Shown here: positions 20,648 to 38,044 of the stretch, one piece after another
Numbering within the stretch: the first letter of the stretch is position 1
Layout of the letters: every line of letters begins with the position of its first letter
NCBI GenBank assembly: GCA_021838945.1
Contig: JAKCCH010000011.1
Location: 1 to 52,835 of the forward strand
Direction: 5' to 3'
From: Actinomycetes bacterium
Lineage (GTDB): Bacteria > Actinomycetota > Acidimicrobiia > Acidimicrobiales > Bog-793
Length of the DNA stretch: 52,835 bases
The notes under the pieces: model-generated
What the model was told of the DNA's origin: nothing
What the model saw: the letters and a program-made list of their open reading frames with translations, nothing else
The model's database searches: none
Program-made: the position numbers and the translations under genes

Positions 20648-21073
20648 GTGCACGTCTACGACCTGACCGGCCTCACCCGGGGTGCGGGCGAGCAACGCCG
20701 CGTCGTCGTCCAGAGCTTCGACGTGCCGCTCCAGAGCCTTGTGCTCGCCATCTGCGGGTTCGTCGCCGCCTTGCCGTTCGTGATCGTGCTGTTCCCACTC
20801 CTCGGGTACGTCGCGCTCTTCGGCATCGGGCTGGTCGAGGTGGGTGTCTTCTGGCTCTTTCGATGGCGGAGCCGCTCAGGCCTGCGCCTCAAGCACTACC
20901 AGGCGATCCTCGATCGCCGACGCAGCCACGTCGACCGGTTCCTCGTCTGCGGCGTGCCCTACGACCTCACGAGGGGGCTCGCGCTGAGTGTCGTGCCGTC
21001 GTCGATCCCGGCCCCGAAGACGGAGAGACACCCCGACGACGACGTCGGGGAACTGTTCTCGAGGGTCTGCTGA
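20648..21073 (+). CDS. VirB3/PrgI/TcpE-like inner-membrane protein
   Basis: 141 residues from a GTG. Two closely spaced hydrophobic spans (about 29-47 and 50-72, FDVPLQSLVLAICGFVAALP onward) follow a short N-terminal domain, then a cytoplasmic tail with RLKHYQAIL, as in the PrgI/TcpE family that partners VirB4 in Gram-positive systems. It ends one base into the next gene start (TGATG). Family identity inferred from topology and context. Confidence 0.6.
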   Translation: MHVYDLTGLTRGAGEQRRVVVQSFDVPLQSLVLAICGFVAALPFVIVLFPLLGYVALFGIGLVEVGVFWLFRWRSRSGLRLKHYQAILDRRRSHVDRFLVCGVPYDLTRGLALSVVPSSIPAPKTERHPDDDVGELFSRVC

Positions 21074-24000
21074 TGCGCGCGTTGCGGGTCTTGTTCGCCT
21101 GCGTGGTGCTCGCCATCGTCGCAGTGGTCGTCTTGTACCCCGGAGCGGTCGCCGGGGCCTCGTCGACGACCGGCAGCACAGCTGCGCCGTCGTCGTCGTT
21201 CATCTGCTCGCAGGGCGCCAGCAACGCCAGCGCCTCTGCCAACAGCTACCTGCCCATCAACCGCTGGGCGGGCGCGGCGAGCACCCAGCACAGCCGCCTC
21301 AGCCTCAACCTGTTCAACATCGGCAACCTGCCGAACGTCGTGCAGCGCGACTTCGTGGTCGGCGACGCCCAGGCGCTCGGCAACACCTTCTGGAGGGCCG
21401 GCGTCGGCCTGACCGAGGCCGCGACGAGGTTCTGCTTCGCCGACTCGGTCGCTGCGACCGCTGACGGGCTCACCGCGACCATCGGCCGGGCGCTCGCGAA
21501 CGGCGGGCTGATCGCGATCCTGCTGGTCGCAGCGGCGATCCTCATCGTCGTCCGGCTCCGGCGCGGGGACAGGACCGCCCGGCACCAGATCGTAAAGATC
21601 GTCGTCGTCGTCCTCTGCTTCGCGGTCATGGTGAACGGGGCGACGCAGACGAAGACCAACGCCAACGGCTCGGTCACCTTCGGCTTCGGATCGCCGGGAT
21701 GGGTGATCACCCACGTCTACAACGCCGCGTCCACCGTCGCCTCTGCACCGGCCGCGGCGCTGTCGGGCGTGGCCGACAGCCTCAACTTCGGCGCCGCGGT
21801 CACCAAACGCATCGACGCCGAGGACCCACTCTCCTGCGGCAACTACGTGAACAACCTGCGTGCCGACTACCGGGCCGCTTACGGAGCCCCGGCCACCTCG
21901 AACATGGCCGCCACCGTCCCGCTCGCGCTCGACGCCATGTGGGAGCAGAGCGGGCTCACCACCTACGCCTACAGCCAGTTCGGCGCCGCCAACGACTACG
22001 CGGCACTCGTCTACTGCCGCCTGCTCGAGGCGAACGCCGGCATCTCCCCGTCCACACAGGTGTACATCACCGGCCAGACGCCCGGTGCGGCGGCCATGCT
22101 CTCTGGCACCAAGGACGTCGGCGGAGCGTCGACGGCGCTCGCGTGGGCCTCGGACCAGAGCCTCGGCGTGAGCCCGAACGCCACCGTCGACGAGTCGATG
22201 GTCGGCTGGGCGGCCTGCCAGACGAGCTCTGCGAGCTTCACACCGATGGAGTGGTCGTCTGCGACCGGCTCCCCGGTCACCTCCGAGTGGACCAAGGTCG
22301 TCGACCCGAACGCGAACGGCAGCGTCTACGGCGCGACAGGCACCGTCACCCCGAAGCTGTGCCAGGCGTTCTTCGACCGGTCCTGGACAGGCTTCGGGCC
22401 ACAAGGAACGGCCTTCGAGTGGGGCGACAACCCCTCCCAGATCACCGCTGCGGCGAACGGGCCGGGTGGCCCCTACCCCGGTTTCGCCGACTACGTGAAC
22501 ACGCTGCACGGGACCGCGAACGGGCCTGCAGAGATGCTCTCGATCATGTTCCTCATCTCTTCGACCGTCGACCTGGTGGTCTTCGGGGTGATGGCCGGTG
22601 CGGTGCTCGTCGCGAAGTTCTCCCTCCTCTTCCTCATGGCCTTCGCCGCCCTCCTCCTTCTCGTCTCGCTCTGGCCGGGCACGGCGGCCTCGAGCCGGCT
22701 CGCCGGGCTCACGAAGCACGCGTTCTCGATGGTGCTCTTCGTGACCGGCGCCCAGGTGATCCTGTCGATCGTCGCCATCACGACGAGCATCATCATGGAC
22801 ACCGGCACCGCCGTCGCCGGCCAAGGGACGTTCCTCTCGCTCTTGTGGATGGGCATTGCCCCGATCGCCGCGCTCTTCATCGTCCACCACCTCTTCAAGC
22901 AAGTCCTGAAGGCCCCGAGCCCCTTCAAGCTCTCCTCGGCGCTCGCCTGGGGGGCTGCGTCCGGCGGGATCGGTGCAGGCGTCGCCACGGGGCTCGACCG
23001 AATCGCCAACCGCAAGGCGGTCTGGGGGACGACCAAGCGCGCGGCAGGGGCGATCCAGGCGCCGTTCGCCGCCGGCAGGCTGAAGCGCCACACGATGGAG
23101 CCGATCGGCTCGGGCGCACAGGCGGCGCTCGGGACGAACGGCGCCGCGTCCGGCGCTACGAAGAACGGCTCCGCGCCCGGCGCGCTGCCCGGCGCCACGA
23201 AGGCGCCCAGCGCGCTCAACGGCCCGGGTGCGAGCACCGGCGGCTCGCCCGGCACGCTGACCGGCGCCGCCAAGCCTCGCGCCGGCGGCGGGCCGGCTGG
23301 GGGGAGGGCACCGACCGCCGCGGGCACCGGCAGGGCGACGCCGGCTGAGGGGGCGGGTGCGCTGGCTGCAGGCACAGGATCGTCGTACGACGTTGTCCGG
23401 CCGCTCACCGTCGCCCAGGCGCCTCACCAGAGGACCGATGCCACCGGGCCGGACGACACCCCCGACGGGGGCACCGGTCCCACGGGTGGTCTCGTCGTTC
23501 CCGTCGGGGCTGCCGCTGTGGGCGCTGGCGCTGTCGGGGCTGGCGTTGCCGGCATTGGCGCCGGGGGCGTCACGGCGCGTGCGCTCGCCAGGCAGCGCCG
23601 GCGCAGATGGCGCCAGAGGCAGCGGGCCCCGGGAGCTGTTCAGGGCGCACAAGATCAGACGGGGGGAGAAGGCGGGACGCTGTCGGCGGGCGGCACCGAC
23701 GTAGGTAGTGCGTACCACTCTGCGCTCGAGCACCTCGCCAAGCGTCGGGGGTTGTCGCTCGGGGCCGACGGCGTCCTTCGGACCCGGACCGGTCGCGTCG
23801 TCGGCGTTCCGCGCCAAGACGAGGTCGACACCCGCAGCGCGGCCGAGCAGGTGCACGACGACCGGGTGCTGCGCCGGGCCGAGGTCCGTGCCGGGCGCGC
23901 GCTCAACCAAAATGCGCTCTCCGAGCGGGCGTCGACGAACGTCCTCAGTCGCTTCGCCCGCTCGGAGCGCACGACCGCCGCCGGCAAGGCGCTCGCCAAG

Positions 24001-24825
24001 ACTGCCGGCGTGCTCGGCAACCGCCGCACGCTCCAGCGGGTGGCGGAGCGCACGCGCCGGGCAGCCCAGGAGCTCCGCGCAAACCCGGTTCATCGCCAGC
24101 TCGCCTCGGCTGCGAAGGTCGGCGCCATGGGCGTCGCAGCGATGGCGCTTATGGCCTCCCCGCCCGCCCTCGGAGCGGTGGCCGGCGCCTACGCGCTGCG
24201 CCGGGCGCACAAGGCCCGCTTCGGGCTCGACGCGCGGCACGCGACCAACCAGCGCCACGTCGCAACCTTCCGGGCTGCGGCGGCCGCAGATCGGGCACGG
24301 CGCCAGGAAGAGGCGAGAGGAGCCGCGCTGGAGCAGGCAGCAGCCGAGCGCCAGGCGAACACGGGAGGCGATGGCACGCCGGTCGCCAACGAGCCGAGCG
24401 CAGAGCAGCCGCCGCCGCGCGACGCCCCGAGCGACCTCGACACCGCCCCGAGCGAGTGGGTCCCGCCCACCCAGCCAGCGTCGAGCCACGTGCCAGCTGC
24501 ACGGCCGGCATCCCAGGGCCATCCCAGCCAGGCCCGCCCCGGTCAGGCCCATCCCAGCCAAGCACAGCCCGCGCATACGAGCGTCCCGGCGCACGAGCCG
24601 CCGACGAGCGCCGCGGAGGTTCTGCGCGACGACACCGGCCGGCCCGGCATCGATCGCCACGACGACAACGCCGGCGGGCCACGTCCGACCGAGAACGAGA
24701 GCCGCGCCCCGAGCCATCTCGTCGGCAACCGGCTCCCGAACCGACCGACGGACGCAGACGAGGTGCCGCCCGAGGTCCGTGCGCGCTTCGACGCCGGGGA
24801 CGAGACGGGTCTCGATGACGGCTAG
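21073..24825 (+). CDS. VirB6/TrbL-like polytopic T4SS channel protein
   Basis: 1250 residues starting at the ATG coupled to the previous stop. Residues 1-30 are a signal/anchor (RVLFACVVLAIVAVVVLYPG). A first pair of spans lies at about 140-190, a long extracytoplasmic part with several Cys at about 195-490, then a cluster of at least five spans at about 495-610 (MFLISSTVDLVVFGVMAGAV, FSLLFLMAFAALLLLVSLWP and following). From about 640 the protein is a Gly/Ala/Pro-rich then Arg/Ala-rich cytoplasmic tail with another hydrophobic patch near 1020. Fits the VirB6/TrbL channel of Gram-positive conjugation systems. The last 35 codons recur as a second copy at 32984-33089. Confidence 0.8.
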   Translation: MRALRVLFACVVLAIVAVVVLYPGAVAGASSTTGSTAAPSSSFICSQGASNASASANSYLPINRWAGAASTQHSRLSLNLFNIGNLPNVVQRDFVVGDAQALGNTFWRAGVGLTEAATRFCFADSVAATADGLTATIGRALANGGLIAILLVAAAILIVVRLRRGDRTARHQIVKIVVVVLCFAVMVNGATQTKTNANGSVTFGFGSPGWVITHVYNAASTVASAPAAALSGVADSLNFGAAVTKRIDAEDPLSCGNYVNNLRADYRAAYGAPATSNMAATVPLALDAMWEQSGLTTYAYSQFGAANDYAALVYCRLLEANAGISPSTQVYITGQTPGAAAMLSGTKDVGGASTALAWASDQSLGVSPNATVDESMVGWAACQTSSASFTPMEWSSATGSPVTSEWTKVVDPNANGSVYGATGTVTPKLCQAFFDRSWTGFGPQGTAFEWGDNPSQITAAANGPGGPYPGFADYVNTLHGTANGPAEMLSIMFLISSTVDLVVFGVMAGAVLVAKFSLLFLMAFAALLLLVSLWPGTAASSRLAGLTKHAFSMVLFVTGAQVILSIVAITTSIIMDTGTAVAGQGTFLSLLWMGIAPIAALFIVHHLFKQVLKAPSPFKLSSALAWGAASGGIGAGVATGLDRIANRKAVWGTTKRAAGAIQAPFAAGRLKRHTMEPIGSGAQAALGTNGAASGATKNGSAPGALPGATKAPSALNGPGASTGGSPGTLTGAAKPRAGGGPAGGRAPTAAGTGRATPAEGAGALAAGTGSSYDVVRPLTVAQAPHQRTDATGPDDTPDGGTGPTGGLVVPVGAAAVGAGAVGAGVAGIGAGGVTARALARQRRRRWRQRQRAPGAVQGAQDQTGGEGGTLSAGGTDVGSAYHSALEHLAKRRGLSLGADGVLRTRTGRVVGVPRQDEVDTRSAAEQVHDDRVLRRAEVRAGRALNQNALSERASTNVLSRFARSERTTAAGKALAKTAGVLGNRRTLQRVAERTRRAAQELRANPVHRQLASAAKVGAMGVAAMALMASPPALGAVAGAYALRRAHKARFGLDARHATNQRHVATFRAAAAADRARRQEEARGAALEQAAAERQANTGGDGTPVANEPSAEQPPPRDAPSDLDTAPSEWVPPTQPASSHVPAARPASQGHPSQARPGQAHPSQAQPAHTSVPAHEPPTSAAEVLRDDTGRPGIDRHDDNAGGPRPTENESRAPSHLVGNRLPNRPTDADEVPPEVRARFDAGDETGLDDG
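24721..24825 (+). repeat. Left copy of about 105-bp direct repeat (end of VirB6-like gene)
   Basis: This stretch, encoding the C-terminus ending DETGLDDG, is closely matched at 32984-33089; both end at a TAG. The copies share GTCGGCAACCGGCTCCC at the start and GTCCGTGCGCGCTT in the middle. They bracket the cargo region. Confidence 0.8.
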
Positions 24826-24839
24826 CGAAGGACAGCGCG

Positions 24840-25268
24840 ATGGCGAAGAGGCGTGCTGCTGGTCGGAGTAAAAGGCGAACGTTGGGCGCTCCCACCGCCT
24901 GCACCTTTCTGCCGGAGCCGCTGGGCGGCTCTGGCAGTGGGGTCATACTCGTAGGGCCGCCCGCGGAACACCCTCCTCTCGGACAGACTGCCGCCTTGAT
25001 GAGTCCTTGCACCTGAAGGCAGATCATCCTCGGTGCTTGTCCGCGAGATGCGAGCCCAGCACGACGGGACGGAGGACCTCCCGCACCAGGCGGCCGACAA
25101 GGTCGTCAGAGCGCCGTCATCGCCCCTCGACGGCGAGACACGGAACCCCACGCTTCTCGCCTGGGCGCGGGCGGTCCGTCAGCCTCGGGGTCGATTGCAA
25201 GGTCGCTCGGGCGCTGAAGAGCGGGCTCGCGCCGGTCGGAGTCGACTTCGGAGTCGCCTGCTCCGCTC
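24840..25268 (+). pseudogene. Decayed tnpB fragment
   Basis: Begins with the same bases as the intact tnpB at 38061 (ATGGCGAAGAGGCGTGCTGC) and follows it through several blocks, including CTTGCACCTGAAGGCAGAT and the region encoding VDFGVAC. It has several indels and lacks about 180 bp of the middle part, then loses similarity near 25268. No frame is open throughout. It abuts the left copy of the direct repeat, marking the left edge of the cargo. Confidence 0.85.
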
Positions 25269-25478
25269 ACCTGGCAGGAAGAGAAGACCGGGATCATGAG
25301 CAGCACCACGATGGCGACCGTGGAGAAGCGCTCTTCCTGGCACCGGTTGGTGTCGCCACGGACCAGAGATCGAGCCGGCCGGGCGCTGCACTCCTCACTG
25401 TCCCCGCACCCGTTGACGACCGGCAGCTCGTGGCACGGGTATAGATCGGATGACGGGCGCCCCGGATCACGGGCTCCG

Positions 25479-25910
25479 TCAGGAAGGATCGTGACCGGCC
25501 AGGAGCGACCGCCGGCGGTACTCGTAGAGACCGTCGAAGACCACGGCGCCGACTGCGACGAGCTCGGGATCGGCGAGCACGAACGACAGCCCGCGCGTCA
25601 CTGCGTCGAGGCCCGGTGCTTCTGGAGCGTCGAAGCGCGAGTCGGCGAGGTCAGCCTCGTGGACGATCCTCGCGACATCCCAGAGCACGGGGTCGTCCAA
25701 CCCGTAGTGGCGCAGCATCGTCTCGAAGGTGCAGTCCGGCCCGTGGTGGGAGAGCTCGACGCCGGGGACGTCGAACGCGATCGCGTGGCTCGGCAGCTCA
25801 GCGCGGTCCTCGACGAAGGAGAACGCCGCCTCGGCGTCGATGAACCGGCGGATGAGCCAGGCGCAGGCGATCCGGTCGATGTGGCAGTGGGCCCGGGTCA
25901 CCCAGCGCAT
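25479..25910 (-). CDS. ChrB C-terminal-domain protein (chromate resistance type)
   Basis: 143 residues. The opening MRWVTRAHCHIDRIACAWLI, then RRFIDAEAAFSFV and FDVPGVELSHHGPDCTFETM are the Chrome_Resist (ChrB C-terminal) domain; the His and Cys-rich segments are the family's conserved core. It overlaps the end of the ChrB-N gene by one base, so ChrB, usually one protein of about 310 residues, is split into two here. Known ChrB proteins regulate or support chromate efflux; no chrA efflux gene is seen in the window. Confidence 0.85.
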   Translation of the reverse strand: MRWVTRAHCHIDRIACAWLIRRFIDAEAAFSFVEDRAELPSHAIAFDVPGVELSHHGPDCTFETMLRHYGLDDPVLWDVARIVHEADLADSRFDAPEAPGLDAVTRGLSFVLADPELVAVGAVVFDGLYEYRRRSLLAGHDPS

Positions 25911-26434
25911 CAGGGCTGCTCCGGCCTGGTGGCGATCGGTCCAGTGCGACTCGGGACAGCGGTTCGCTCCTCGCGCGTATCAGAGGCGAGCGCCTCGATC
26001 GCCTGCACGGCACGCTCGCGCGCCGGCGGAGCGACGAAGTCACGCTGGCGGACCTGCTCGAGCTGCCTCCGGAGCCTCGAGCGCGCCCGCGCCCGTGAGG
26101 CACCGCTGGTCCGTGCCGCCTCGTCGGCCTCGCGGACGAGCGCCTCGTACTCAGCCGCGCGCTCTGCGCCCATGCGCTCCATGAGCAGGGCCGAGACCTG
26201 GGTCGTCGTCGGGCGGCTGGTCCACACGCTGGCCTCCCCGCCTGCTTCGACGATGCCGGCCGCCAGCCATTCGAGCTGCTCCTCGCTGCGCGCGGTGTGC
26301 GGGAGCATGGCGACGCCGTCCACGAGCCGGACCGCCCCGAGCTGGCGAAGTCGACGCCACAGGCCGATGCGGGGCGTCGAAGGCTCCCGCGGGAGACGGT
26401 AGACGAGCATCACCCACGAGCGCTCCCCGGCCAT
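25910..26434 (-). CDS. ChrB N-terminal-domain protein
   Basis: 174 residues from ATG. SWVMLVYRLPREPSTPRIGLWRRLRQLGAVRL, read in pieces (VMLVYRLPREPS; RIGLWRRLRQLGAV), is the ChrB N-terminal domain: a Y-x-L-P-x-E-P-S..R...WR.L...GA pattern, followed by a long helical part with basic residues. In characterised ChrB the N-terminal part is implicated in chromate-dependent regulation. Divergent from the propeller-MFS-ChrB operon, with a palindrome between them that may be its target. Confidence 0.82.
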   Translation of the reverse strand: MAGERSWVMLVYRLPREPSTPRIGLWRRLRQLGAVRLVDGVAMLPHTARSEEQLEWLAAGIVEAGGEASVWTSRPTTTQVSALLMERMGAERAAEYEALVREADEAARTSGASRARARSRLRRQLEQVRQRDFVAPPARERAVQAIEALASDTREERTAVPSRTGPIATRPEQP

Positions 26435-26456
26435 CCGAGCAGCGTAGCCTGACCCT

Positions 26457-26485
26457 TGTCGCGCTGTGAAACCATGGTTACACTC
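26457..26485 (+). promoter_or_regulatory. Promoter with palindromic operator for the propeller-MFS operon
   Basis: TTGTCG (26457) and TACACT (26480) are spaced by 17 bases, a sigma-70 type promoter reading right. The near-perfect palindrome GTGAAACCATGGTTACAC (26467-26484, symmetric except for one base pair) covers the spacer and -10, as expected for a repressor site. Candidate binder: the divergent ChrB N-terminal protein (inference). Confidence 0.65.
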
Positions 26486-26527
26486 ATCGCAGACGTCGGT
26501 CGGTGACGGCGCTACGGGAGGACACGT

Positions 26528-27409
26528 GTGGGGTTGACGAGGATCGCGACGGTGGAGCTGCCATCACGCGGCGACTACGACCACGCCGACGTGCACCTGC
26601 GAAGTGGCCGGGTCTACCTGGCCAACACCGCGCTCGACCAGGTCGAGGTCCTCGACGGACCGGGAGCGAGCCATCTCGACAGCATTGCGGGGTGCGCAGG
26701 CGGGAGCGGCGTGCTCGCCGTCGGCGAGGGGGTCGTCGCAGCGGCGCGCGGCTCGGGCGAGCTGCTCGTCCTCGACGGCGCAAGCGGCAGGCTGCTGCGC
26801 CGCTTCCCGGTCGGTCCCGCGCCGAACGGCTTGGCATGGGATCCCGACCGAGCCCGGCTGCTCGTCGCCGACACGAGCGAGCACACTGCTCGTCTCGTCG
26901 ACTTGGGTGGGTCGGCGCTCGCCACCGTCGCGCTCCCCGGTCGCCCCCGTTGGGCGGTCCACGACGCGTGCTCGGGCCACTTCTACGTGAACGTGAAGGA
27001 TCCCGCCGGCGTCATCGCCCTCGACGCCGCGAACCTTGCCACGGTCGGCTGGTTCCCGCTCGAGACCATCGGCCCGCACGGCCTCGGCCTCGACGCCGAG
27101 CGAGGCGTGCTGCTCGTCGCCTGCGACGACGCGTCGCTGCGCTGGGTGGACCCGAGCTCGGGTCACGAGCTGCACGCCGTCGCGCTCGCTGGCGAGCCCG
27201 ACGTCGTCCTCGTCGACGCCCGACGAGCCAGCGCGTACGTCTGCGTCGGCGACCCGCCGACCCTGCACGTCGTAGACCTCGACGAGCGCGCCATGCGCGG
27301 GGCCATCACCACGGGCGCCGGCGCCAAGACGGCCGCCCTCGATGAAGAGCGCGGGAGGCTCTACGCCTTCCTGCCTGCAGCAGGCCAGGCGTGGGTCTAC
27401 GGGCTGTGA
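26528..27409 (+). CDS. YncE-like beta-propeller protein
   Basis: 293 residues from a GTG with GGGAG just upstream. Repeating units of about 42 residues with the pattern G-x-V-Y-x-A-N...V-x-V-L-D (GRVYLANTALDQVEVLDG; GELLVLDGASGRLLRRFPVG; RARLLVADTSEHTARLVDL; GHFYVNVKDPAGVIALDA) build a six- or seven-bladed propeller as in YncE and YVTN proteins. No signal peptide, so probably cytoplasmic. It is the first gene of an operon with an MFS transporter and a ChrB-like gene; its role in metal handling is unknown. Confidence 0.82.
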   Translation: MGLTRIATVELPSRGDYDHADVHLRSGRVYLANTALDQVEVLDGPGASHLDSIAGCAGGSGVLAVGEGVVAAARGSGELLVLDGASGRLLRRFPVGPAPNGLAWDPDRARLLVADTSEHTARLVDLGGSALATVALPGRPRWAVHDACSGHFYVNVKDPAGVIALDAANLATVGWFPLETIGPHGLGLDAERGVLLVACDDASLRWVDPSSGHELHAVALAGEPDVVLVDARRASAYVCVGDPPTLHVVDLDERAMRGAITTGAGAKTAALDEERGRLYAFLPAAGQAWVYGL

Positions 27410-28683
27410 TCGGAGCGCACGGCCGCTCCGGGCACGACGGGGACCTCCACCGGATCCTTTTCGCCCGCGGCGCTCGGGGACTCGCGTCGGGGTACTTCGC
27501 CGTGGTCCTCGGCGTCGAGCTGCACCACCAGGGACTGCCGGGCATCGAGGTCGGCCTGGTGCTCGGTGCCGTCCTCGGCGGTGCGGCGTTCGCCCTGTTG
27601 GGGGTGCGCCGCTTCGCCGACGGTGCCGGTCGCCGGCGCTGCTACCTCGCCGGCTACCTCGCCCAGTCGACGGCGGGCCTCGTCCTCGTGCTCTCGCCGT
27701 GGTGGTGGCTGCTCGTCGTCGTCAGCCTGACCGGAGCACTGTCGGGCGAGATCATCGACTCGGGCCCCTTCGGTGCGCTGGAACAGGTCATGCTCACGAC
27801 CGCCGTCACCGAGGAGCGGCGACTGCGCACCTTCAGCCGCTACGGCGCGGTCGGCACCGCGACGGGCGCGCTGGGCGCGCTCGGTGCCGGGCTGCTCCAG
27901 CTCGTCGGCCCTGGTGCGACCGGTCGGTCGAGCTTCCTCCCCATCATCCCGCTGGCGCTGTTCGGGGCAGCGTGTGCCTGGGGGCTGTCCGCTCGCGTCG
28001 AGCACGCCGCGATCGACGTCACGAGCGCTTCGCCCGCGCCGGCCATCGCCAAGCGGCCCGCCGGCGGCGAGACCCGCCGGATCGTGCACCGGCTCTCGGC
28101 GCTGTTCGCCCTCGACTCGTTCGGAGCAGGCTTCACGGTGCAGGCATTCGTCGCCTACTGGCTCGCCGCCCGCTTCGAAGCGAGCACGCTCTCGATCGGG
28201 ATGATCTTCCTCGGGATCGGAGTGCTCCAGACGGCCTCGATGATGGTGGCCGGTCGCCTCGGCGAGCGGTTCGGGCTGCTCTCGACGATGGTGTTCACGC
28301 ATCTGCCGTCAAACGGCTTCCTCGCCGCCATCGCCTTCGCCCCGACCCTGCCGGTCGCCGCGGTGCTGCTCTGCCTTCGTGCCTCCCTGTCGCAGATGGA
28401 CGTCCCGACGCGCAACGCCTACGTCATGGCTCTCGTCCCGGCCCGGGACCGGACGGAGGCCGCGAGCACGACCGGACTCGCCCGGCTCCTCGCGCGCCCG
28501 CTCGGTCCACTGCTCGCGGGCGCGGCGCAGGGCCTGACGCTCGGCGCACCCTTCCTCATCTCTGGAGCGTTGAAGGGCATCTACGACGTCAGCCTGTGGC
28601 TGTGGTTCCGGCGCGTCCCGCTTCCCGAAGACGACGGTCGCCCCGCGGTCCCTGCGATGCGAGCCAAAGGAGCGAGCACATGA
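27406..28683 (+). CDS. MFS transporter
   Basis: 425 residues if translation starts at the GTG that overlaps the previous stop (GTGA); an in-frame GTG five codons earlier is possible. About 12 hydrophobic spans in two halves with a central loop around residue 205 (SPAPAIAKRPAGGETRRI). The loop between spans 2 and 3 is the positively charged VRRFADGAGRRR, the position of the MFS motif G-x-x-x-D-R-x-G-R-R; the second half has AGRLGERFGLL. Neighbouring ChrB genes suggest export of an oxyanion or metal, but the substrate cannot be read from the sequence. Confidence 0.85.
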   Translation: MIGAHGRSGHDGDLHRILFARGARGLASGYFAVVLGVELHHQGLPGIEVGLVLGAVLGGAAFALLGVRRFADGAGRRRCYLAGYLAQSTAGLVLVLSPWWWLLVVVSLTGALSGEIIDSGPFGALEQVMLTTAVTEERRLRTFSRYGAVGTATGALGALGAGLLQLVGPGATGRSSFLPIIPLALFGAACAWGLSARVEHAAIDVTSASPAPAIAKRPAGGETRRIVHRLSALFALDSFGAGFTVQAFVAYWLAARFEASTLSIGMIFLGIGVLQTASMMVAGRLGERFGLLSTMVFTHLPSNGFLAAIAFAPTLPVAAVLLCLRASLSQMDVPTRNAYVMALVPARDRTEAASTTGLARLLARPLGPLLAGAAQGLTLGAPFLISGALKGIYDVSLWLWFRRVPLPEDDGRPAVPAMRAKGAST

Positions 28684-28711
28684 ACAACCGCATGAACGAA
28701 GGAGCGACGAC

Positions 28712-29158
28712 ATGAAGTGGATGACCCGTGCCCGCCCGAAGACCGACCGGATCGCGTGCCCCTGGCTGATTCGGCGCTTCATCGACCCCGACGCGGCGAT
28801 CATCTACGTCCCCGCGGACGAGGTGATCGAACGAGCCGGAAGTGAGGGTGCGCGCACCTTCGACGCACCGGGAGCGGAGTTCACCCACCGCGACAACAAG
28901 TGCAGCTTCGAGGTGCTCATCGACGAGTTCGACCTCGCCCGCGACAACCCCGCGCTCGTGCGGCTCGCCAAGATCGTGCACGCCGCCGACATCGCCGCCG
29001 ACTCGGGCTCGGACCCCCTCGGAGCCGGGCTCGAGGCCATCGGTGTCGGCGGCCTCGACGTCGAAGCGGACGACCAGCTCCTCTGCGAGCGCGGCTCGTT
29101 CGTCTACGACTCGCTCTACGCCTGGTGCCAGCGCGAGGTCGCCTCCTCGATGTCCTGA
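28712..29158 (+). CDS. Second ChrB C-terminal-domain protein
   Basis: 148 residues; AAGGAG eight bases before the ATG. MKWMTRARPKTDRIACPWLI, RRFIDPDAAIIYV and FDAPGAEFTHRDNKCSFEVL align block by block with the ChrB-C gene at 25479, so the window has two diverged paralogues on opposite strands around the propeller and MFS genes. It retains the Cys and His of the core. Last gene of the rightward operon. Confidence 0.87.
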   Translation: MKWMTRARPKTDRIACPWLIRRFIDPDAAIIYVPADEVIERAGSEGARTFDAPGAEFTHRDNKCSFEVLIDEFDLARDNPALVRLAKIVHAADIAADSGSDPLGAGLEAIGVGGLDVEADDQLLCERGSFVYDSLYAWCQREVASSMS

Positions 29159-29313
29159 ACCCGCCCTCCGGCCAGCCAAGGTCGGCTCGACTGGCGCCTT
29201 CGGTACCGGACGCGTGCTGCTCGGTCTTGTTGGCGGCTGTCCTGGGCAGGGAGAAGCACCCGTGCCTCGGATCTCGTTGAACCGCTGCCGGCAGATGACA
29301 TCACGCGGCGTGG

Positions 29314-29991
29314 TCACCCAGCGCCAGCGTCTTCCCGCTGCAAGGAGAGCGCGACGAAGCCGGCTCTGGCGACCGCACCGCCGCGCACCGGCTCGACGAC
29401 GGGCTCGTCGCTCGGCGCCTGAAAGAGGGTCGAGCGAGCCTCGACAAGCCGGAAGCCAGCCGTAGCAAGCATCCGGCGGTGCTCGGGCAGGCTCTGGAAG
29501 CGAGCGTGGCGGTAGAACGGGTGGCCGGCGCGGCCCTTCTCTCCGTAGGAACGGCCCCAGGCGCTGTCGAGCGGGACGAGACCGACCACGAGACGGCCGC
29601 CGGGTCGAAGGACGCGGCCCGCCTCGGCGAGCACGCCTGCCGGGTTCTCGGCGAAGCAGAGCGTGACGACGAGCGCGACGGCAGCGAAGGTGGTGTCGGC
29701 AAACGGGAGCTGGTCGCCGACGCTGCGCAGCACGCGCACGCCGCGCGCCTTGGCGAGACGCAGCGGCGCCTCCACAGGATCGAGGCCGACCTCGATGCCG
29801 AGTGCGGCGGCGAAGCGTCCCGAGCCGACCCCGACCTCGAGCCGCGGGCGGGACGTGCCGTCGAACAGTGGCCGCAGGGCGCCCAGTTCGAGGTCGAACA
29901 GCACCCGTCCTGCCGCGGTGTCGTACCAGGCGTCGTAGCGGTCGGCGAGGTCCTCGAAGGCCTGTGCAGCCGGGTTGGCTTTGGTCCGCAC
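29314..29991 (-). CDS. Class I SAM-dependent methyltransferase
   Basis: 225 residues from a GTG with GAGGAGG four bases upstream. The N-terminal part AFEDLADRYDAWYDTAAGR is typical of small Methyltransf_11 proteins; the SAM-binding motif I is LEVGVGSGRFAAAL (about 50-63), motif II region LRSVGDQLPFADTTFAAVALV, and post-II LRPGGRLVVGLV. The acceptor cannot be told; neighbours (sulfide and metal genes) would allow an arsenite- or thiol-type substrate, but the three-Cys pattern of ArsM is absent. Divergent from the ArsR-rhodanese gene. Confidence 0.85.
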   Translation of the reverse strand: MRTKANPAAQAFEDLADRYDAWYDTAAGRVLFDLELGALRPLFDGTSRPRLEVGVGSGRFAAALGIEVGLDPVEAPLRLAKARGVRVLRSVGDQLPFADTTFAAVALVVTLCFAENPAGVLAEAGRVLRPGGRLVVGLVPLDSAWGRSYGEKGRAGHPFYRHARFQSLPEHRRMLATAGFRLVEARSTLFQAPSDEPVVEPVRGGAVARAGFVALSLQREDAGAG

Positions 29992-30045
29992 GTGGCCTCC
30001 TCGTGGTCCAACTTCCGCGACGCACACGACGTGTATTCGCTACTA

Positions 30046-30063
30046 TTCCATAGATTTATGGAA
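30046..30063. promoter_or_regulatory. Operator TTCCATA-N4-TATGGAA over the ArsR start
   Basis: A perfect 7-bp inverted repeat with four-base centre that includes the ATG of the regulator. A TACTAT box (30041-30046) directly upstream would be the -10, so binding here would block initiation. Matches the size and symmetry of ArsR-family operators. Confidence 0.75.
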
Positions 30064-30798
30064 CATGATTCCGGAAGCGCCGATGTCTACGAGCAGCTGG
30101 CGCGCATCGGCAAGGTAGTCGTGCACCCCAAGCGCATCGAGCTGCTCGACCTGCTCTGCCAGGCCGAGCGCAGCGTCGAGACCTTGGCCGAGGCGGCGGG
30201 GCTCAAGCTCACGACGGCGTCTGCGCACCTGCAGGTGATTCGCCAGGCCCGCCTGGTCGAGACCCGCCGGGAGGGGACCCGCGTCTACTACCGCGCCGCC
30301 GGCGAGGAGGTGTGCCGCTTCGTCGCCGCGCTCGGCGACCTCGGCCGGGCACGCCTGGCGGAGGTCGACCAGATCCTTCGCGCCATCGGGGCGGGCAGCG
30401 ACAGCGCCGAGCGGGTGACCCGTGCCGAGCTGCTCGAGCGCGTCCGGTCCGGTGAGGTCGTCGTCCTCGACGTCCGCCCGGCCGAGGAGTACGCAGCCGG
30501 GCACATCCCCGGGGCGGTCTCGCTGCCGTTGGAGCACTTGGAGGCCCGCCTCGGCGAGCTCGACCCCGGCCTCGAGGTTGTCGCCTACTGCCGGGGGCCC
30601 CTGTGCCTCCTCGCCCCCGAAGCCGTCGCGACCCTTCGTGCCCGAGGGCTGCGAGCGCGCTGCTTGGAAGACGGGCTTCCCGAGTGGCGCCAGGCCGGCC
30701 TCCCCGTCGCCACCGCCCCAGCAGGCCGCTCGGGGCGCGACACGCCAGCCACGGCACCGACGAACGGGCACGAGGCGAGGCCGGGCCGTCGCCGATGA
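30058..30798 (+). CDS. ArsR-family regulator fused to a rhodanese domain
   Basis: 246 residues, the ATG lying inside its presumed operator. Residues about 8-100 are a winged-helix ArsR domain (VVVHPKRIELLDLLCQAERS, TTASAHLQVIRQARLVETRR, EGTRVYYRA). Cys at about 35 (LDLLC) and Cys at about 89 (EEVCRFV) lie where persulfide-sensing SqrR/BigR regulators keep their two reactive Cys. Residues about 120-225 are a rhodanese domain (VVVLDVRPAEEYAAGHIPGA) with active-site loop YCRGPLC. With sulfide:quinone oxidoreductase downstream, a role as sulfur-responsive repressor with its own sulfurtransferase domain is likely (inference). Confidence 0.88.
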   Translation: MEHDSGSADVYEQLARIGKVVVHPKRIELLDLLCQAERSVETLAEAAGLKLTTASAHLQVIRQARLVETRREGTRVYYRAAGEEVCRFVAALGDLGRARLAEVDQILRAIGAGSDSAERVTRAELLERVRSGEVVVLDVRPAEEYAAGHIPGAVSLPLEHLEARLGELDPGLEVVAYCRGPLCLLAPEAVATLRARGLRARCLEDGLPEWRQAGLPVATAPAGRSGRDTPATAPTNGHEARPGRRR

Positions 30799-31132
30799 GC
30801 GCCGCGGCGACCGACGAGGCCGTCTACCTCGACCACAAACCCACGTCTCGTTCCCCGGCGTCCTCGGCACGGACGTCCTTGCCCGGGTCCCCCAGCTCGC
30901 GGCGTCCACCGGGTCCGCCTGCCACGCCGGCGAGCACACCGAGAACACGACCCTGCTCGTCATGGGTGCCGCCCCCGAGGTTGCCCTCGGCGCGGTGCGG
31001 CTCTCGCCCGGTCGCGGCACCCACCCGGGCTGAGATCGAAGCGGCCGCCGAGCTGCTCGCCGGCGCGCATCTGGCCCTTGTCGCCACCACGCCGTCTCCG
31101 ACCAGTCCCAGCACGAGCAAAGGAACGCCCCC
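30795..31132 (+). pseudogene. Cysteine desulfurase (NifS/IscS-like) pseudogene with internal deletion
   Basis: The ATG is coupled to the previous stop and the frame begins DEAVYLDHKPT, like the Y-L-D-(H/N)-x-(A/S)-T start of aminotransferase class V desulfurases. After about 16 codons the family similarity jumps to another frame and to the C-terminal part: HVSFPGVLGTDVLARV then the catalytic-Cys loop STGSACHAG and ALGAVRLSPGRGT; the final helix (EIEAAAELLAGAHLALV) is in a third position. The PLP lysine and most of the enzyme, some 270 residues, are missing. An ancestral operon of regulator-desulfurase-DsrE-SQR is implied. Confidence 0.85.
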
Positions 31133-31483
31133 ATGAAGATCCTCGTCGTCTTGAACGACCCGCCCTATGGCACCGAGCGCTCCTACAACGGCCTGCGCCT
31201 CGCCGGCGCGCTCTCCAAGCGCGAGGGGGTCGAGGTGCGGGTGTTCTGCTTCGGCGACGCCGTCGGCTGCGCGATAAGGAACCAGAAGGTCCCCGACGGC
31301 TACTACCACATCGACCGCATGGTCACCGCGGTCGTCCGCCACGGCGGGGTGATCGGCTGCTGCGGCACGTGCATGGACGCCCGGGGCCTCGCCGACGAGC
31401 TGCTCGCCGGCGGTGCCCGTCGCTCCACCTTGGAGGAGGCGACCGACTGGACGATCTGGGCCGACAAGGTGGTGAGCTTCTGA
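31133..31483 (+). CDS. DsrE/DsrF-like sulfur-carrier-type protein
   Basis: 116 residues. KILVVLNDPPYGTERSYNGL and EGVEVRVFCFGDAVGCAI give the DsrE fold (beta-alpha, then V-x-V-F-x-x-x-D-x-V), and GGVIGCCGTCMDARG carries the conserved G-x-C-G-x-C-x-x-x-R-G motif with potential persulfide-carrying Cys. The AAGGAACGCCCCC upstream gives a weak ribosome site. The stop overlaps the SQR start. It probably relays sulfane sulfur between the quinone oxidoreductase and the cytosol. Confidence 0.88.
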   Translation: MKILVVLNDPPYGTERSYNGLRLAGALSKREGVEVRVFCFGDAVGCAIRNQKVPDGYYHIDRMVTAVVRHGGVIGCCGTCMDARGLADELLAGGARRSTLEEATDWTIWADKVVSF

Positions 31484-32700
31484 TGGGCACCGTGCGCATC
31501 GTGATCGTCGGCGGCTCCTTCGGCGGACTGACCGCCGCCTACGAGCTCCGCCGACGCTTCAGCCCCGAGCGCGCCGAGATCACGCTCGTCTCCAGGGACG
31601 ACCAGTTCCGCTTCGTCCCCTCCTTCCCCTGGGTGGCGACCGGGCGGCGGCGCCTCGAGCAGATCTCGTTCCCCCTCGCGACCCCCCTCGCCCGAAAGCA
31701 GGTCCGCTTCGCGAACGAGACGGTCACCCACATCGACACCGCCGCCAAGGTGATCGCGTCGGACGCGGGCGAGCACCCCTACGACTTCCTCGTCGTCGCC
31801 ACCGGGCACCGCAGCGCGAACGAGGCCGTCCCTGGGCTCGGGCCCTTCGACGGCCCCGGCCACTCGCCGATGTCGGCACCGGAGACCGAGGAGCTCGCCC
31901 AGGCGATCCGGCGCCTCCTCGCCGAGCCGGGACCGGTCGTCGTCGGCGCGGCCCCGGGAGCGAGCTGCATAGGCCCGGTCTACGAGCTCGCGTTCTGCCT
32001 TGACCACCTGCTCCGGCGCCGCGGGCTTCGCCACCAGGTCCCCATGAGCCTGCTCACGCCCGAGCCGTTCCTCGGCCACATGGGCATGGGTGGCGCCGGC
32101 ACCATCCGCCAGCTCTTCGAGGCCGCCCTCGAAGAGCGAGACATCGCCTATCGCACCTCGGTCGCGATCACCCGGGTCACCGGGGAGTCCGTCGAGACGA
32201 CCGACGCGGCCCCGACGCCCTCGGTGTGCTCGATCGTCATCCCGCCCCTCGCCGGCGCCGCGGCGGTCGCTGCGAGCGAAGGGCTCACGAACCCGAAGGG
32301 CTTCGTGCCCGTCGACGACCACTACCGCCACACCTCGGCCGAGGGCGTGTACGCGGTCGGCGTCGCCGTCGCCCTCCCCCCCGTCGGAGAGACCCCGGTG
32401 GCCGTCAACTTCCCGAAGACCGGCCACATGACCGAGCAGATGGCGAGGATCGCCGCCGTCGACCTCTCGGCGCGCCTCGACGGCCACGAAGCCCCCAGGG
32501 CCGAGCTGTCGGCCCGCTGCATCCTCGACATGGGCGACCGCGCCGCCTACCTCGCCGTCGACCCCGTCCGCCCGCCCCGCAACCGCATTCCGACGGTCTC
32601 CGAAGGCCGTTCCTGGCTCGTCGCCAAGATGGGCTTCGAGCGCGCCTACCTCGCCTTCGCCCGGCGCGGGAAGCTCGTGCCGACGAGCATCGGATGGTGA
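31483..32700 (+). CDS. sqr: Sulfide:quinone oxidoreductase-type flavoprotein
   Basis: 405 residues, typical for SQR. IVIVGGSFGGLTAAYELRR is the FAD-binding Rossmann motif; DFLVVATGHRS the second FAD contact; VVVGAAPGASCIGPVYELAF holds the GASC-x-GP-x-YE motif characteristic of SQR with one redox Cys; GVYAVGVAVALP and NFPKTGHMTEQMA are the C-terminal FAD and quinone-side segments. A further Cys in PSVCSIVIPP may complete the disulfide. The C-terminus (SWLVAKMGFERAYLAF) is the amphipathic membrane-attachment part. It oxidises sulfide to sulfane sulfur at the inner membrane, passing electrons to quinone; likely controlled by the ArsR-rhodanese protein. Confidence 0.9.
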   Translation: MGTVRIVIVGGSFGGLTAAYELRRRFSPERAEITLVSRDDQFRFVPSFPWVATGRRRLEQISFPLATPLARKQVRFANETVTHIDTAAKVIASDAGEHPYDFLVVATGHRSANEAVPGLGPFDGPGHSPMSAPETEELAQAIRRLLAEPGPVVVGAAPGASCIGPVYELAFCLDHLLRRRGLRHQVPMSLLTPEPFLGHMGMGGAGTIRQLFEAALEERDIAYRTSVAITRVTGESVETTDAAPTPSVCSIVIPPLAGAAAVAASEGLTNPKGFVPVDDHYRHTSAEGVYAVGVAVALPPVGETPVAVNFPKTGHMTEQMARIAAVDLSARLDGHEAPRAELSARCILDMGDRAAYLAVDPVRPPRNRIPTVSEGRSWLVAKMGFERAYLAFARRGKLVPTSIGW

Positions 32701-32777
32701 GCGATGTACGAGCGGCCGGCGTGCAGTCGTCCAGCCGTCCCTGCAGGGGCGCCGACGCGCTCGGGCGAGCCCGGCGG

Positions 32778-32979
32778 TCAGCCTCCTTGGTCGATGACGT
32801 GACAGACGAGTCTCGGGTCGCATCGACTCGGATCGAGGCGTCGTGCCCGCCGGTGGAGGCTCGACAGCTCGTCGCGCAGCGCCCGAAGCTCGGCGATCCG
32901 GGCATCGAGCTCGGCTGCCCGGCGCCCGATCAGGTCCACCACGAAGCGACACGGCGTCTCGCCCCGGTCCCGAAGGGCG
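32778..32979 (-). pseudogene. C-terminal remnant of a MerR-family regulator
   Basis: The frame ending at 32778 reads LRDRGETPCRFVVDLIGRR, then AAELDARIAELRALRDELSSL and CDPRLVCHVI, which is the dimerisation helix and metal-type C-terminus of MerR regulators (Cys at GETPC and VCHVI). The N-terminal winged helix is gone: upstream of about 32979 the sequence changes into the right copy of the VirB6-end repeat. A broken regulator, cut at the right edge of the cargo. Confidence 0.75.
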
Positions 32980-32983
32980 ATTT

Positions 32984-33089
32984 GTCGGCAACCGGCTCCC
33001 AAAACCGACCGGCGGACCAAGACGAGGTGCCCCCCGACGTCCGTGCGCGCTTGGACGCCCAAGACGAGACGGGCCTCGACTCGACATAG
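32984..33089 (+). repeat. Right copy of about 105-bp direct repeat
   Basis: Matches 24721-24825 with scattered substitutions and one extra A after GGCTCCC, which breaks the frame at that point; the last 28 codons still read NRPADQDEVPPDV...DETGLDST and stop at TAG. No VirB6-like gene precedes it here. Confidence 0.8.
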
Positions 33090-33112
33090 AGTGCCCGAGC
33101 GTCGGGCACTCT
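33088..33112. terminator. Perfect hairpin at the cargo's right edge
   Basis: AGAGTGCCCGA pairs with TCGGGCACTCT around GCG, an 11-bp perfect stem starting at the stop codon of the repeat. It would terminate transcription coming from either side; no T-tract. Confidence 0.65.
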
Positions 33113-33127
33113 GGTCCCGACAACGGA

Positions 33128-33475
33128 CTACGGAAGCCCTTCAATGAGGGCCACGACGTCCTCACGCCGCAGACCCCAGTGGCGGGCGAGGCGGAGCAGC
33201 TCGACAGCCTGTGCGACGACGATGCCGTGCGCAGGCTCGCCGGCGACCGTGATGCCGCGACCACGCCGGAACTCCAGCACTCCCTCGTCGCGGAGCATCC
33301 GAACGGCCCGCAGGACGGTGTTGGGATGAACACCAAGCACCGCGGCCATGTCGCGCGCCGGAGGGAGGCGTCCGCCGGGACGGACCTCCCCGGCGTTGAT
33401 GTCGTGCCGGATCGCAGCCGCGACCTGCTCGTGCAGCGGAGCATCTCCGTTCCGCTCGACCTCGGCATCCAACAT
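33128..33475 (-). CDS. GntR/YtrA-type transcriptional regulator
   Basis: 115 residues. APLHEQVAAAIRHDINAGEV, RPGGRLPPARDMAAVLGVHP and NTVLRAVRMLRDEGVLEFRR are the GntR winged helix; the short C-terminal helix pair (about 80-115) is the YtrA-like effector/dimer part, without the larger FadR or UbiC domain. The ATG is chosen because it abuts the palindrome that separates it from the divergent BNR protein gene; the transcript is probably leaderless. Expected to repress itself and the divergent gene. Confidence 0.85.
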   Translation of the reverse strand: MLDAEVERNGDAPLHEQVAAAIRHDINAGEVRPGGRLPPARDMAAVLGVHPNTVLRAVRMLRDEGVLEFRRGRGITVAGEPAHGIVVAQAVELLRLARHWGLRREDVVALIEGLP

Positions 33476-33498
33476 GGTGACATGTATAGTATCACCAT
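33474..33498. promoter_or_regulatory. Shared operator ATGGTGA-N11-TCACCAT with divergent -10 boxes
   Basis: A perfect 7-bp inverted repeat lies between two start codons. TATAGT at 33485-33490 is eight bases before the ATG of the BNR gene; on the other strand TACTAT serves the GntR gene. Probable GntR autoregulatory site. Confidence 0.7.
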
Positions 33499-35673
33499 AT
33501 GCTGACGTCTGATCCTCCCGTCCACAAGGCACCGGCTCTTGAGCCCGAGGTCGTGGTGCGGGAGGCGCGGCGGCGCCAGCGGCGGCGCTGGGCCCTTTGC
33601 GCGCTCGCCGTCTGCATGGCGGCCGGTCTCGTCGCAGGAGCCGTCGTCGTCGCCGGCTCGCCACCTCCGGCGGGCCCGCGCGGTCATAGGCCGGGTCAGA
33701 AGCAACCTCGGTCCTCCGTCGCCTCGTCGGTCTCGCATCACCCGTCCGTGCCGTTCGGATCCTCCGCCGCCTGTCCCGCCACACCGACCGGGTCGATGTT
33801 CAACCCGCTGCCTGACGGCACCTTCACGAGCTGCCTGCGGGTCGGCCCACTCTCGGCCGGCCGCTACCACGTCGTCGTCACCGGGGCCCTCACAATCCCA
33901 AGGTTCACCCGCCAGGCGCGCCTCGCTCCGCCCGAGACAAGGGTTCGCCTCACCATCGAACCGACGAGGGGAGGCCCGGGGACCAGGGTCACGGTGGCGG
34001 GAACGGTCCCCACTCGAGCACGGATCGCCACAACATACGGCGTGGTCTGCTGGGATGGCTGTGCAGACGGCCTCCAGTACACGATGGCCAAGCACTGGAC
34101 GTCACCGACGACGTTCGTCGAGCACTTCAGGGTCCCGGCCGCGCCCTGGGTTGTCGCCGCACGTGTCGGGAAGTACCGGATCGCGCCCCTCGTGAGTGGG
34201 AACTACCAGGTCGGCATCGACTGCGTCGTCGTCTCGAAGGCCTGTGGCAGCACGGAAGGATCGGCCATCTTCCACCTCGTGGTGCCCCGCAGCACCCGGC
34301 GGCGTCTCTGCACGTCGCGGACTCCAACCGCGTGCATCTACCTCCAGCTCCGCCGCGACGCAGCCATGCCCGCAGAGGCCGTGCGCGTGCGCGGCTTCGT
34401 CCCGCTCACGTCCAATCTCCTGAGTCTCGAAGTGCTGCCGGGGAGTACGAAGGGCCCAGCGCTTGCCCTTCGTCGAGCGCCCAAGGGCGGCCTCACCCTG
34501 CGCTACGGGCAGGCGAACCTCACAGTCCGCGCCGCACCGACGCTCGCGAGCTTGGGGAAGCTCGAAGTCCTCGGAGAGCAGTCCGACGGCCCGGCGCCGG
34601 TCTCTGCCAATCCCGCTGCGCCGGGTCGGATCGCATGGTGCGGGCAGGGCCTGATCGGCCTTGTCGACTCGAAGGGTGCGGGGCTCGGCAACGTGTCGAC
34701 GGCGGGCGTTCCTGCGGCGATCGCCGACGCGGGCATCGGCTACGGCCTGCTCGGAAGCGGGGGCATCGGCTACGACCTGGCTGCCAAGACAGTGGTGTGC
34801 CACGACGTCGCGATCCCGAGATCAGGCCCTGCGCTGTTCGCAGCCTTCAGTGTGGCGGTCGTGCCGACACGAACGGTCGCCGGGTACGTCGCGCTCGAGA
34901 CGACCGATGGCGGGGGGAGCTGGACGCTCGTGCCTGCGCCTCCGGGTGCTCATGTCACAGGCTTCGGCGGCTTCCATTACCAAGACGATCGCGTCGTCGC
35001 CCTCTACACGCCTGGGTCGACAGGTGCGAGGGGTGGATACACGTCGAAGGTGACCCCACCGATCGTGGAGACCTTTGACACAGCGACGGGGACGTGGGCG
35101 ACCTCCTCATTGGCGTGTCCGCAGGGGCAACCCTGTACGAGGTTCGGCTCGGCAGTACCCGTCAACTGTGCGATGAACGGAGCTCCCGAGTGGGTCCTGA
35201 TCTCGACCGATGGCGGGAAGAGGTGGCGTTTGCCCACATGGCCCGTCGCCGTGGACGGCTGCACCTCCTCGTCGCTCGTCGCAACCGGCCCGTCGAGCGA
35301 GCTCTTCGTAAACGCGGCTGCCTCCTATCCCATGCTCCGCTCGACGGACGGCGGCAAGGACTGGTCGGACGTGGCGCTGCCGACGCCGCCCTTCACAATT
35401 GGCGCAATTGGCGGTTTGGGACCCGACACGATCTTCCTGCCCAACGGTGCGCTCCTCGCCATCAAGGCGGGCGCAGCCGTCGACTGGGCCCTGCTTCGGC
35501 CTCAGAGAGCTCGATGGTGCGCGGTCACCTCGATCTCCCCGACCATCGGCAGGTCGGTCGGTACGTCCGCACCGGCACTGTTTGCGACAGCACTGTGGTG
35601 GGTGAGCAGTGGGGCAAGCAGCGGCCGGCCGGCGTCGCTTCAGCGCATTGGGGTATCGAGCATCCGCTGCTGA
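33499..35673 (+). CDS. Membrane-anchored extracellular protein with BNR/Asp-box repeats
   Basis: 724 residues. A basic stretch (REARRRQRRRW, about 23-33) precedes one membrane span (ALCALAVCMAAGLVAGAVVVA), so the rest is outside the cell. Residues about 85-330 hold two beta-sandwich-like segments with paired Cys (VRLTIEPTRGGPGTRVTVAG and RVRGFVPLTSNLLSLEVLPG). The C-terminal half has Asp-box turns (TTDGGGSW, STDGGKRW, STDGGKDW), the S/T-x-D-x-G-x-x-W marks of BNR or sortilin/YCF48-like propellers. Not necessarily a sialidase: the arginine triad was not identified. Under GntR control. Confidence 0.8.
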   Translation: MLTSDPPVHKAPALEPEVVVREARRRQRRRWALCALAVCMAAGLVAGAVVVAGSPPPAGPRGHRPGQKQPRSSVASSVSHHPSVPFGSSAACPATPTGSMFNPLPDGTFTSCLRVGPLSAGRYHVVVTGALTIPRFTRQARLAPPETRVRLTIEPTRGGPGTRVTVAGTVPTRARIATTYGVVCWDGCADGLQYTMAKHWTSPTTFVEHFRVPAAPWVVAARVGKYRIAPLVSGNYQVGIDCVVVSKACGSTEGSAIFHLVVPRSTRRRLCTSRTPTACIYLQLRRDAAMPAEAVRVRGFVPLTSNLLSLEVLPGSTKGPALALRRAPKGGLTLRYGQANLTVRAAPTLASLGKLEVLGEQSDGPAPVSANPAAPGRIAWCGQGLIGLVDSKGAGLGNVSTAGVPAAIADAGIGYGLLGSGGIGYDLAAKTVVCHDVAIPRSGPALFAAFSVAVVPTRTVAGYVALETTDGGGSWTLVPAPPGAHVTGFGGFHYQDDRVVALYTPGSTGARGGYTSKVTPPIVETFDTATGTWATSSLACPQGQPCTRFGSAVPVNCAMNGAPEWVLISTDGGKRWRLPTWPVAVDGCTSSSLVATGPSSELFVNAAASYPMLRSTDGGKDWSDVALPTPPFTIGAIGGLGPDTIFLPNGALLAIKAGAAVDWALLRPQRARWCAVTSISPTIGRSVGTSAPALFATALWWVSSGASSGRPASLQRIGVSSIRC

Positions 35674-35695
35674 GCGGTCTCGGACTCTAGGTCGA

Positions 35696-36328
35696 CTAGA
35701 CGATCAGATCGGGGCGCCAGGTGCGGTAGAGGGCCGCGATCGTCTGGCGCTCGCCCATGAAGAGCACTGTGAAGCTCCAGAGCGCCCTGCGCTCGCCGTC
35801 TCGCAGCTCTTGTGCGTTGTAGATGAGCATGCCGACACGGGCGGCCGTGCGAACCTGCTCGGCGGGGATCCTCCTCGGTGGCACCGAGGAGACGAGGGAA
35901 TCCGTCCGCTCGATCGCCAGCCGGAGATCGAGCATCGCTTCGGTCTGCTCGAGACGTTCGGGGTGACGCCGGTACTTGCGGGTCCGAGCGAGCGCGTCGA
36001 CCTCTGCTTGGAGCAGCTCGGGCGAGAGCGGAGGGCGCCAGATGCTCCGGATGGTGTAGATGCGCGTCCTCTCCTCGCGGTAGCGACGCGTGTGGTGCAG
36101 CTCGTGGAGCTGCGTCTCCATCTCTTTGTGCCGTTTCTCGTCGCGTGCTTGGACCATGCGCAGCACGTCGTCGGGCACGAAGACGTACGTCCAGAAGTCG
36201 AAGACCTGGTCGGCGTTGATGGGCGGCGGCGGGTACGCGTAGGAGCCGTCGGCGTTGTAGGCCTTGATCTGTGCCCAGTAGTCCTCTTCGGACAGATGGG
36301 CGTCACCCTCGTCGTGCTCGATCGTCAT
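35696..36328 (-). CDS. Hypothetical element protein (210 aa)
   Basis: Starts nine bases after the stop of the preceding gene, with GGAG upstream. The N-terminal part is Tyr/Pro-rich (YWAQIKAYNADGSYAYPPPP), then VFDFWTYVFVPDDV; the middle is strongly charged and helical (KRHKEMETQLHELHHTRRYR), possibly coiled coil, and the C-terminus ends LYRTWRPDLIV. No membrane segment, no motif recognised. Last gene of the leftward helicase operon. Confidence 0.72.
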   Translation of the reverse strand: MTIEHDEGDAHLSEEDYWAQIKAYNADGSYAYPPPPINADQVFDFWTYVFVPDDVLRMVQARDEKRHKEMETQLHELHHTRRYREERTRIYTIRSIWRPPLSPELLQAEVDALARTRKYRRHPERLEQTEAMLDLRLAIERTDSLVSSVPPRRIPAEQVRTAARVGMLIYNAQELRDGERRALWSFTVLFMGERQTIAALYRTWRPDLIV

Positions 36329-36337
36329 GATGAGGTC

Positions 36338-37486: not shown

Positions 37487-37494
37487 GACAACAC

Positions 37495-37522
37495 TGAGGG
37501 CGGCGGCGGGCGGAGTCCCGCG
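37495..37522 (-). promoter_or_regulatory. CCCTCA-N8-ATG element
   Basis: On the minus strand CGCCGCCGCCCTCA ends eight bases before the ATG at 37486; TGAGGG on the plus strand is 37495-37500. Confidence 0.5.
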
Positions 37523-38038: not shown

Positions 38039-38044
38039 CAACCA

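Follow-up and report, generated by a model that had tools for sequence, protein, structure and literature searches.

The stretch of DNA analysed here (52,835 nt, called the window) is most likely a mosaic in which two diverged versions (X and Y) of one conjugative-element locus are combined. We give this reading a rough probability of 0.7. The two versions would have been fused by an illegitimate join inside a merR gene, leaving an orphan end of a virB6-like gene at the junction. The features concerned are collected in Table 1.

Table 1. Positions of the features discussed, numbered from the first letter of the window.
Feature	Positions	Strand	Remarks
VirB6-like channel protein gene, attributed to lineage X	20863-24825	+	1320-aa ORF; probable start near 21073; last gene of its block
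Left repeat copy (L)	24721-24825	+	3' end (last 105 nt) of the intact virB6-like gene
Post-stop flank CGGCTAGCGAAGGACAG (CGGCTA-CGAAGGACAG)	24819-24835	+	recurs at 37544-37560
tnpB remnant	24837-25341	+	without IS left end and tnpA; decayed
Cargo module	25432-32981		same edges in several contigs of other genomes, 86-92% identity; Pfam
merR remnant	32778-32981	-	C-terminal 67 codons, MerR-type; N-terminal DNA-binding part lost at the junction
Illegitimate junction GGGCGAT/TTGTCGGC	32981-32984		merR joined to virB6 tail; also in G023:C72
Right repeat copy (R)	32984-33083	+	orphan 3' end of a diverged virB6-like gene, attributed to lineage Y; final codons to 33089 differ
Block splitting the Y copy at the virB6 stop, ~4.5 kb	33080-37543		left copy contiguous across this point; Pfam
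Perfect hairpin AGAGTGCCCGA-GCG-TCGGGCACTCT	33088-33112		11-bp stem
gntR	33128-33475	-	inside the 33080-37543 block
BNR-type protein gene	33499-35673	+	inside the 33080-37543 block
Orphan protein gene	35696-36328	-	inside the 33080-37543 block
Orphan protein gene (395 aa)	36338-37525	-	last gene of the 33080-37543 block
Second post-virB6 flank copy	37544-37560	+	adjoins the intact IS605 on its left; outside the IS
IS200/IS605-type element	37566-39472		Pfam and NCBIfam; repeats; left end set by copies in other genomes
IS left hairpin	37570-37589		IS200/IS605-type element
tnpA (Y1)	37622-38086	-	IS200/IS605-type element
tnpB, intact	38061-39407	+	IS200/IS605-type element
IS right hairpin	~39445-39472		IS200/IS605-type element

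The gene whose end is repeated encodes a protein with strong hydrophobic segments, 27-30% identical to megaplasmid proteins that have the same preceding genes. The Pfam TrbL/VirB6 family matches one of eight aligned homologues (E=0.0014) and not the window protein itself, and the IMG/VR scan returned no relatives of it. Judged by its position, its membrane segments and this one weak Pfam match of a homologue, the product is probably VirB6-like. A DNA polymerase III alpha (dnaE-type) gene lies inside the conjugative backbone (4080-7661), as it does in Micrococcales megaplasmids. The nearest backbones found are megaplasmids. No integrase, att site or chromosomal attachment ends were seen among the scanned window ORFs, and the contig ends may cut the element. 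The first-pass annotation had called the host element an ICE; since no ICE integrase was seen, the term is better read as 'conjugative element'.

The same annotation had described about 105 bp at the end of the virB6-like gene as repeated at 32984-33089. BLAST of R against the window confirmed this (87.5% over 96 nt, E=3.5e-29; next best match E=0.001). L and R have the same orientation and are separated by 8.26 kb. Homology between them sets in abruptly at GTCGGCAACC and extends as far as the stop codon. R has one base more than L (CCCAAAACC in place of CCCGAACC), so that its first part is out of frame, and its last codons read TCG ACA TAG where L has GAC GGC TAG. The longest identical run is 17 nt. 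We compared both with F, the virB6 end of contig L005 (JAJZAM010000027.1, from an Actinomycetes MAG). Over the 105 nt, L and R are 83% identical, L and F 87%, and R and F 82%. R is as far from L as either is from F, and thus represents a third lineage rather than a recent duplicate of L. An origin of the right copy in a related element, as had been suggested, is therefore borne out over a recent duplication. About 7 of 13 differences in R fall at third codon positions, with the replaced last codons left out; the numbers are small, and so weak a bias leaves room for long drift of an old duplicate. We had also considered a C-terminal secretion tail common to several proteins. This was rejected, because among 147 genomes the 37-aa tail occurs in L, R and G023 alone, other matches having E values of ~0.02 or worse.

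The duplication extends beyond virB6, a point absent from the first annotation, which had recorded neither the second flank (37544-37560) nor the second tnpB sequence (38058-38741). The two flank copies agree at 16 of 17 positions; at up to two mismatches, two matches were found against 0.04 expected by chance. That CGAAGGACAG might belong to the IS left end was rejected. IS copies in other genomes lack it, so the 17-mer is flanking DNA. The tnpB remnant aligns with 38058-38741 of the intact gene at 80% over 491 aligned positions, with a large internal deletion in the remnant. Flank and tnpB thus have right-hand counterparts about as diverged as the two virB6 ends. The whole locus, and not only virB6, is present twice, which shifts the reading towards two copies of one ancestral locus. 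A composite transposon was also discarded: it needs two IS copies able to move the segment, and the left one is a tnpB remnant lacking tnpA and the IS left end.

The same evidence bears on an old in-place duplication, in which the virB6 end, its flank and the IS605 were copied within one element, the cargo and the gntR block coming to lie between the copies at a later time. The direct orientation on one contig fits this, as does the joint duplication of flank and tnpB with the virB6 end. However, R is no closer to L than to F, so the event must be about as old as the split of X from F. The untranslated R tail would also have to have stayed nearly open and similar at the protein level, and the break in merR requires a separate event. 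We regard this account as unlikely, though it deserves some weight.

The right junction lies inside merR. Two or three bases at most are common to the merR and virB6 sides of GGGCGAT/TTGTCGGC, and there is no long homology, as in an illegitimate join. An intact merR-type gene is present in contig L097. Past the right edge, the sequence runs on into merR in L097, L099, L102 and L107; in L103 it continues for ~35 bp only and then has its own break. Beyond the break stands R, diverged and in direct orientation downstream of the intact virB6-like gene, as expected of an orphan 3' end. That a broken gene lies at each junction (the tnpB remnant to the left, the truncated merR to the right) and that a perfect hairpin closes the right side had both been noted before, and both observations hold. 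The simplest account of the tnpB remnant and the orphan virB6 end is that they are the X and Y versions of one ancestral locus, and not two breaks at cassette junctions. The hairpin is probably a terminator between convergent gene ends. It was also considered as part of a mobile gntR module, and this was set aside because distant gntR relatives have no perfect hairpin behind the gene.

A junction of this kind could also arise if contigs of two strains were joined in metagenome assembly. The window comes from a fragmented MAG (178 contigs, 81% complete), and binning is unreliable here, near-identical contigs being found in bins of different families. Nevertheless, the right junction is also present on a separately binned contig of a second MAG, G023:C72, which matches window positions 30525-36629 at 99.6% over 6.1 kb, including the merR-R-gntR junction, and has different ends and a different gap, although both MAGs may share one sample. 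Moreover, merR and virB6 have no long common sequence that could mislead an assembler. An artefact is, in our estimate, improbable.

The cargo between the repeats comprises, in order, ChrB_C/ChrB_N, a beta-propeller-like protein, an MFS transporter, ChrB_C, a methyltransferase, an ArsR-rhodanese protein, a decayed cysteine desulfurase, DsrE, an SQR-like protein and the merR remnant. By Pfam, the chromate and sulfur proteins are two ChrB_C, one ChrB_N, the MFS transporter, rhodanese-ArsR, DsrE and an SQR-like flavoprotein, so the initial description as chromate-type and sulfide genes was right in outline; no ChrA was found among the cargo proteins tested. The two ChrB_C genes face each other as diverged paralogues in one module, and form a 93-nt inverted repeat of 77% identity (25812-25904 and 28718-28810). 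The remnant of the cysteine desulfurase (class V aminotransferase) lies at 30799-31100; L097 has a full gene, being ~870 bp longer between the points that match window positions 30709 and 30845.

G042, G015 and further genomes of the order contain colinear cargo DNA, 86-92% identical, which has edges of its own there. The similarity to the window begins at 25432 in L097, L098 and L101, some 600 bp inside the left repeat, and ends at 32980-32981 in L097, L099, L102, L103 and L107. The right repeat copy is missing from at least five contigs with this cargo, and relatives of this kind were what the first-pass annotation had named as a refutation. These results count against the earlier proposal that the repeats delimit the module. 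In G042, the same cargo lies between direct repeats of ~320 bp that are 86% identical (L097:7948-8269 and 18272-18591). One of the two has at its end a GGTGGCGGGGG motif that resembles the 3' end of a tRNA. Neither this site, the window nor the fetched relatives contained a tRNA, and tRNA-associated integration was rejected despite these flanking repeats. Contigs G015:C165 and C195 match G042:C46 over 8.8 and 11.2 kb at 100% and 99.97%, with the two MAGs placed in different families; this near-identity reflects either recent transfer or misbinning of a mobile element.

Many islands integrate at gene ends and restore them, and the repeats could accordingly be attL and attR of an island that entered the 3' end of virB6. 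The duplicated gene end, intact on the left, is what such an event would leave, and differing copies are expected if the island brings its own gene end. Against this, no integrase was found among the proteins tested between the repeats. The edges of the mobile DNA seen on other contigs with the same cargo and no repeat (25432 and 32981) do not match the repeats in position. Each inner end has a broken gene, merR or tnpB, and the duplication takes in the post-stop flank and tnpB as well, which lie outside the proposed core of an att site. We therefore consider att-type integration very improbable.

The right copy is itself split at its stop by the 4.5-kb block. GGCTAG stands at the stop in both L and F, so the split state is presumably derived. 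The products of the two orphan genes in the block matched no family in Pfam, PHROGs or NCBIfam, and the 395-aa protein had no relative in the plasmid or viral (IMG/VR) collections searched. Further right, tandem repeats of ~258 and 250 nt with Ig-like and PKD domains (48906-50817) belong to a large minus-strand protein with an NHL/beta-propeller part.

For the two-element mosaic, the anatomy suggests the following course, in which we infer the direction and order of events, the anchor, and X and Y as separate elements. The ancestral order would have been the virB6 end with its stop GGCTAG, CGAAGGACAG, an IS605-type element and the backbone. X would have kept this order (virB6-X, flank, decayed tnpB) with the chromate and sulfur cargo behind it, while Y acquired the gntR block precisely at the stop of its virB6. 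A single illegitimate join in the merR of the cargo would then have connected X with the last ~35 codons of virB6-Y, so that all sequence from 32984 rightwards would be Y. The most likely route is that X recombined homologously with Y in or upstream of virB6, which served as the anchor, and was joined illegitimately at the other end; this one-sided route would have displaced the old virB6 end, which now lies further downstream as an orphan. Equally compatible is a deletion between two elements that were co-resident or in tandem, since it would give the same product. The identity profile of virB6 against L005, the sole relative that covers its 3' part, has no clear mosaic break. Searches of 397 genomes of the order, and of the other collections, yielded no Y element whose virB6-Y is complete.

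The content behind virB6 is variable. In L005, the virB6-like gene is 85.6% identical over 1.9 kb, and within ~100 bp of its stop begins a different cargo. As read from the sequence, this consists of FCD-type gntR, hydrolase, enolase-superfamily, ABC-transport, DHDPS-like and SDR genes, that is, sugar-acid catabolism genes directly behind virB6. L005 has a single repeat copy on its 23.4-kb contig. With L005, X and Y, three different contents are seen at the same backbone position, from one relative and the two lineages of the window. The first-pass annotation had placed a hot spot behind the channel-protein gene, and had asked whether relatives differ just after it and whether a form with one repeat copy exists; L005 supports the hot spot and answers both questions in the affirmative. 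A general hot spot behind virB6 in distant homologues was rejected: five Micrococcales megaplasmids that encode remote VirB6-like homologues all have the same, conserved genes downstream. In two Curtobacterium plasmids, the genes behind the homologue differ from those of these five. The hot spot would thus at most be limited to the group of this element. Tentatively, the virB6-like stop may be a recurrent landing site in conjugative elements of Actinomycetota from acid environments, where the gene would act as an anchor, successive cargoes would push old ends downstream, and orphan tails would record the order of acquisition.

The mechanism first proposed for this hot spot, active exchange of cargo by homologous recombination between L and R, has the different content behind virB6 in L005 in its favour, but it is very improbable. 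With 83% overall identity and no identical run above 17 nt, the repeats offer too little for RecA to recombine them efficiently. The right join, within merR, is illegitimate, L005 has just a single copy, and relatives of the cargo have no repeat.

If the mosaic reading is right, conjugative elements of acidophilic Actinomycetota, about which little is known, may acquire genes for metals and sulfur without a dedicated cassette system, through imprecise joins for which a conserved transfer gene provides the anchor. The orphan tail can be used as a marker: a search for additional 3' ends of transfer genes could bring to light earlier changes of cargo in other elements.

The ICE families SXT/R391 and ICESa2603 have cargo hot spots with variable genes at a fixed backbone position. 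The site behind virB6 is similar, but here it is known from one relative and the two lineages of the window, no integrase or ICE ends were seen, and the host element may be an ICE or a plasmid. Micrococcales megaplasmids such as pACHL01 share the VirB6-like homologue with the same two preceding small genes and a nearby dnaE; their proteins are less than 31% identical, and their post-virB6 genes are conserved, with no cargo there. Homology-facilitated illegitimate recombination has been shown during E. coli conjugation, at ~3x10^-10 per recipient (PMC3240628). The window resembles it in having an illegitimate join at one end, seen at merR/virB6, and presumably a homologous one at the other. Those experiments used introduced DNA, whereas here the process is deduced from anatomy, and the virB6 profile gave no position for the homologous crossover. 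A one-sided mechanism has been proposed to explain orphan 3' ends in T6SS loci, with Rhs loci cited as a parallel (PMC5361080). The displaced 3' ends of Rhs/CDI and T6SS effector-immunity arrays share with the window a conserved upstream anchor, new DNA behind it, and the old 3' part downstream, in direct orientation and diverged. Unlike in those arrays, the anchor here would be a conjugation-channel gene, the new DNA is ~8 kb of metabolic and metal cargo, and the orphan is a 100-nt tail without evident function. Set beside these systems, the window clearly exemplifies a known type of genome patchwork and is no new cassette machine.
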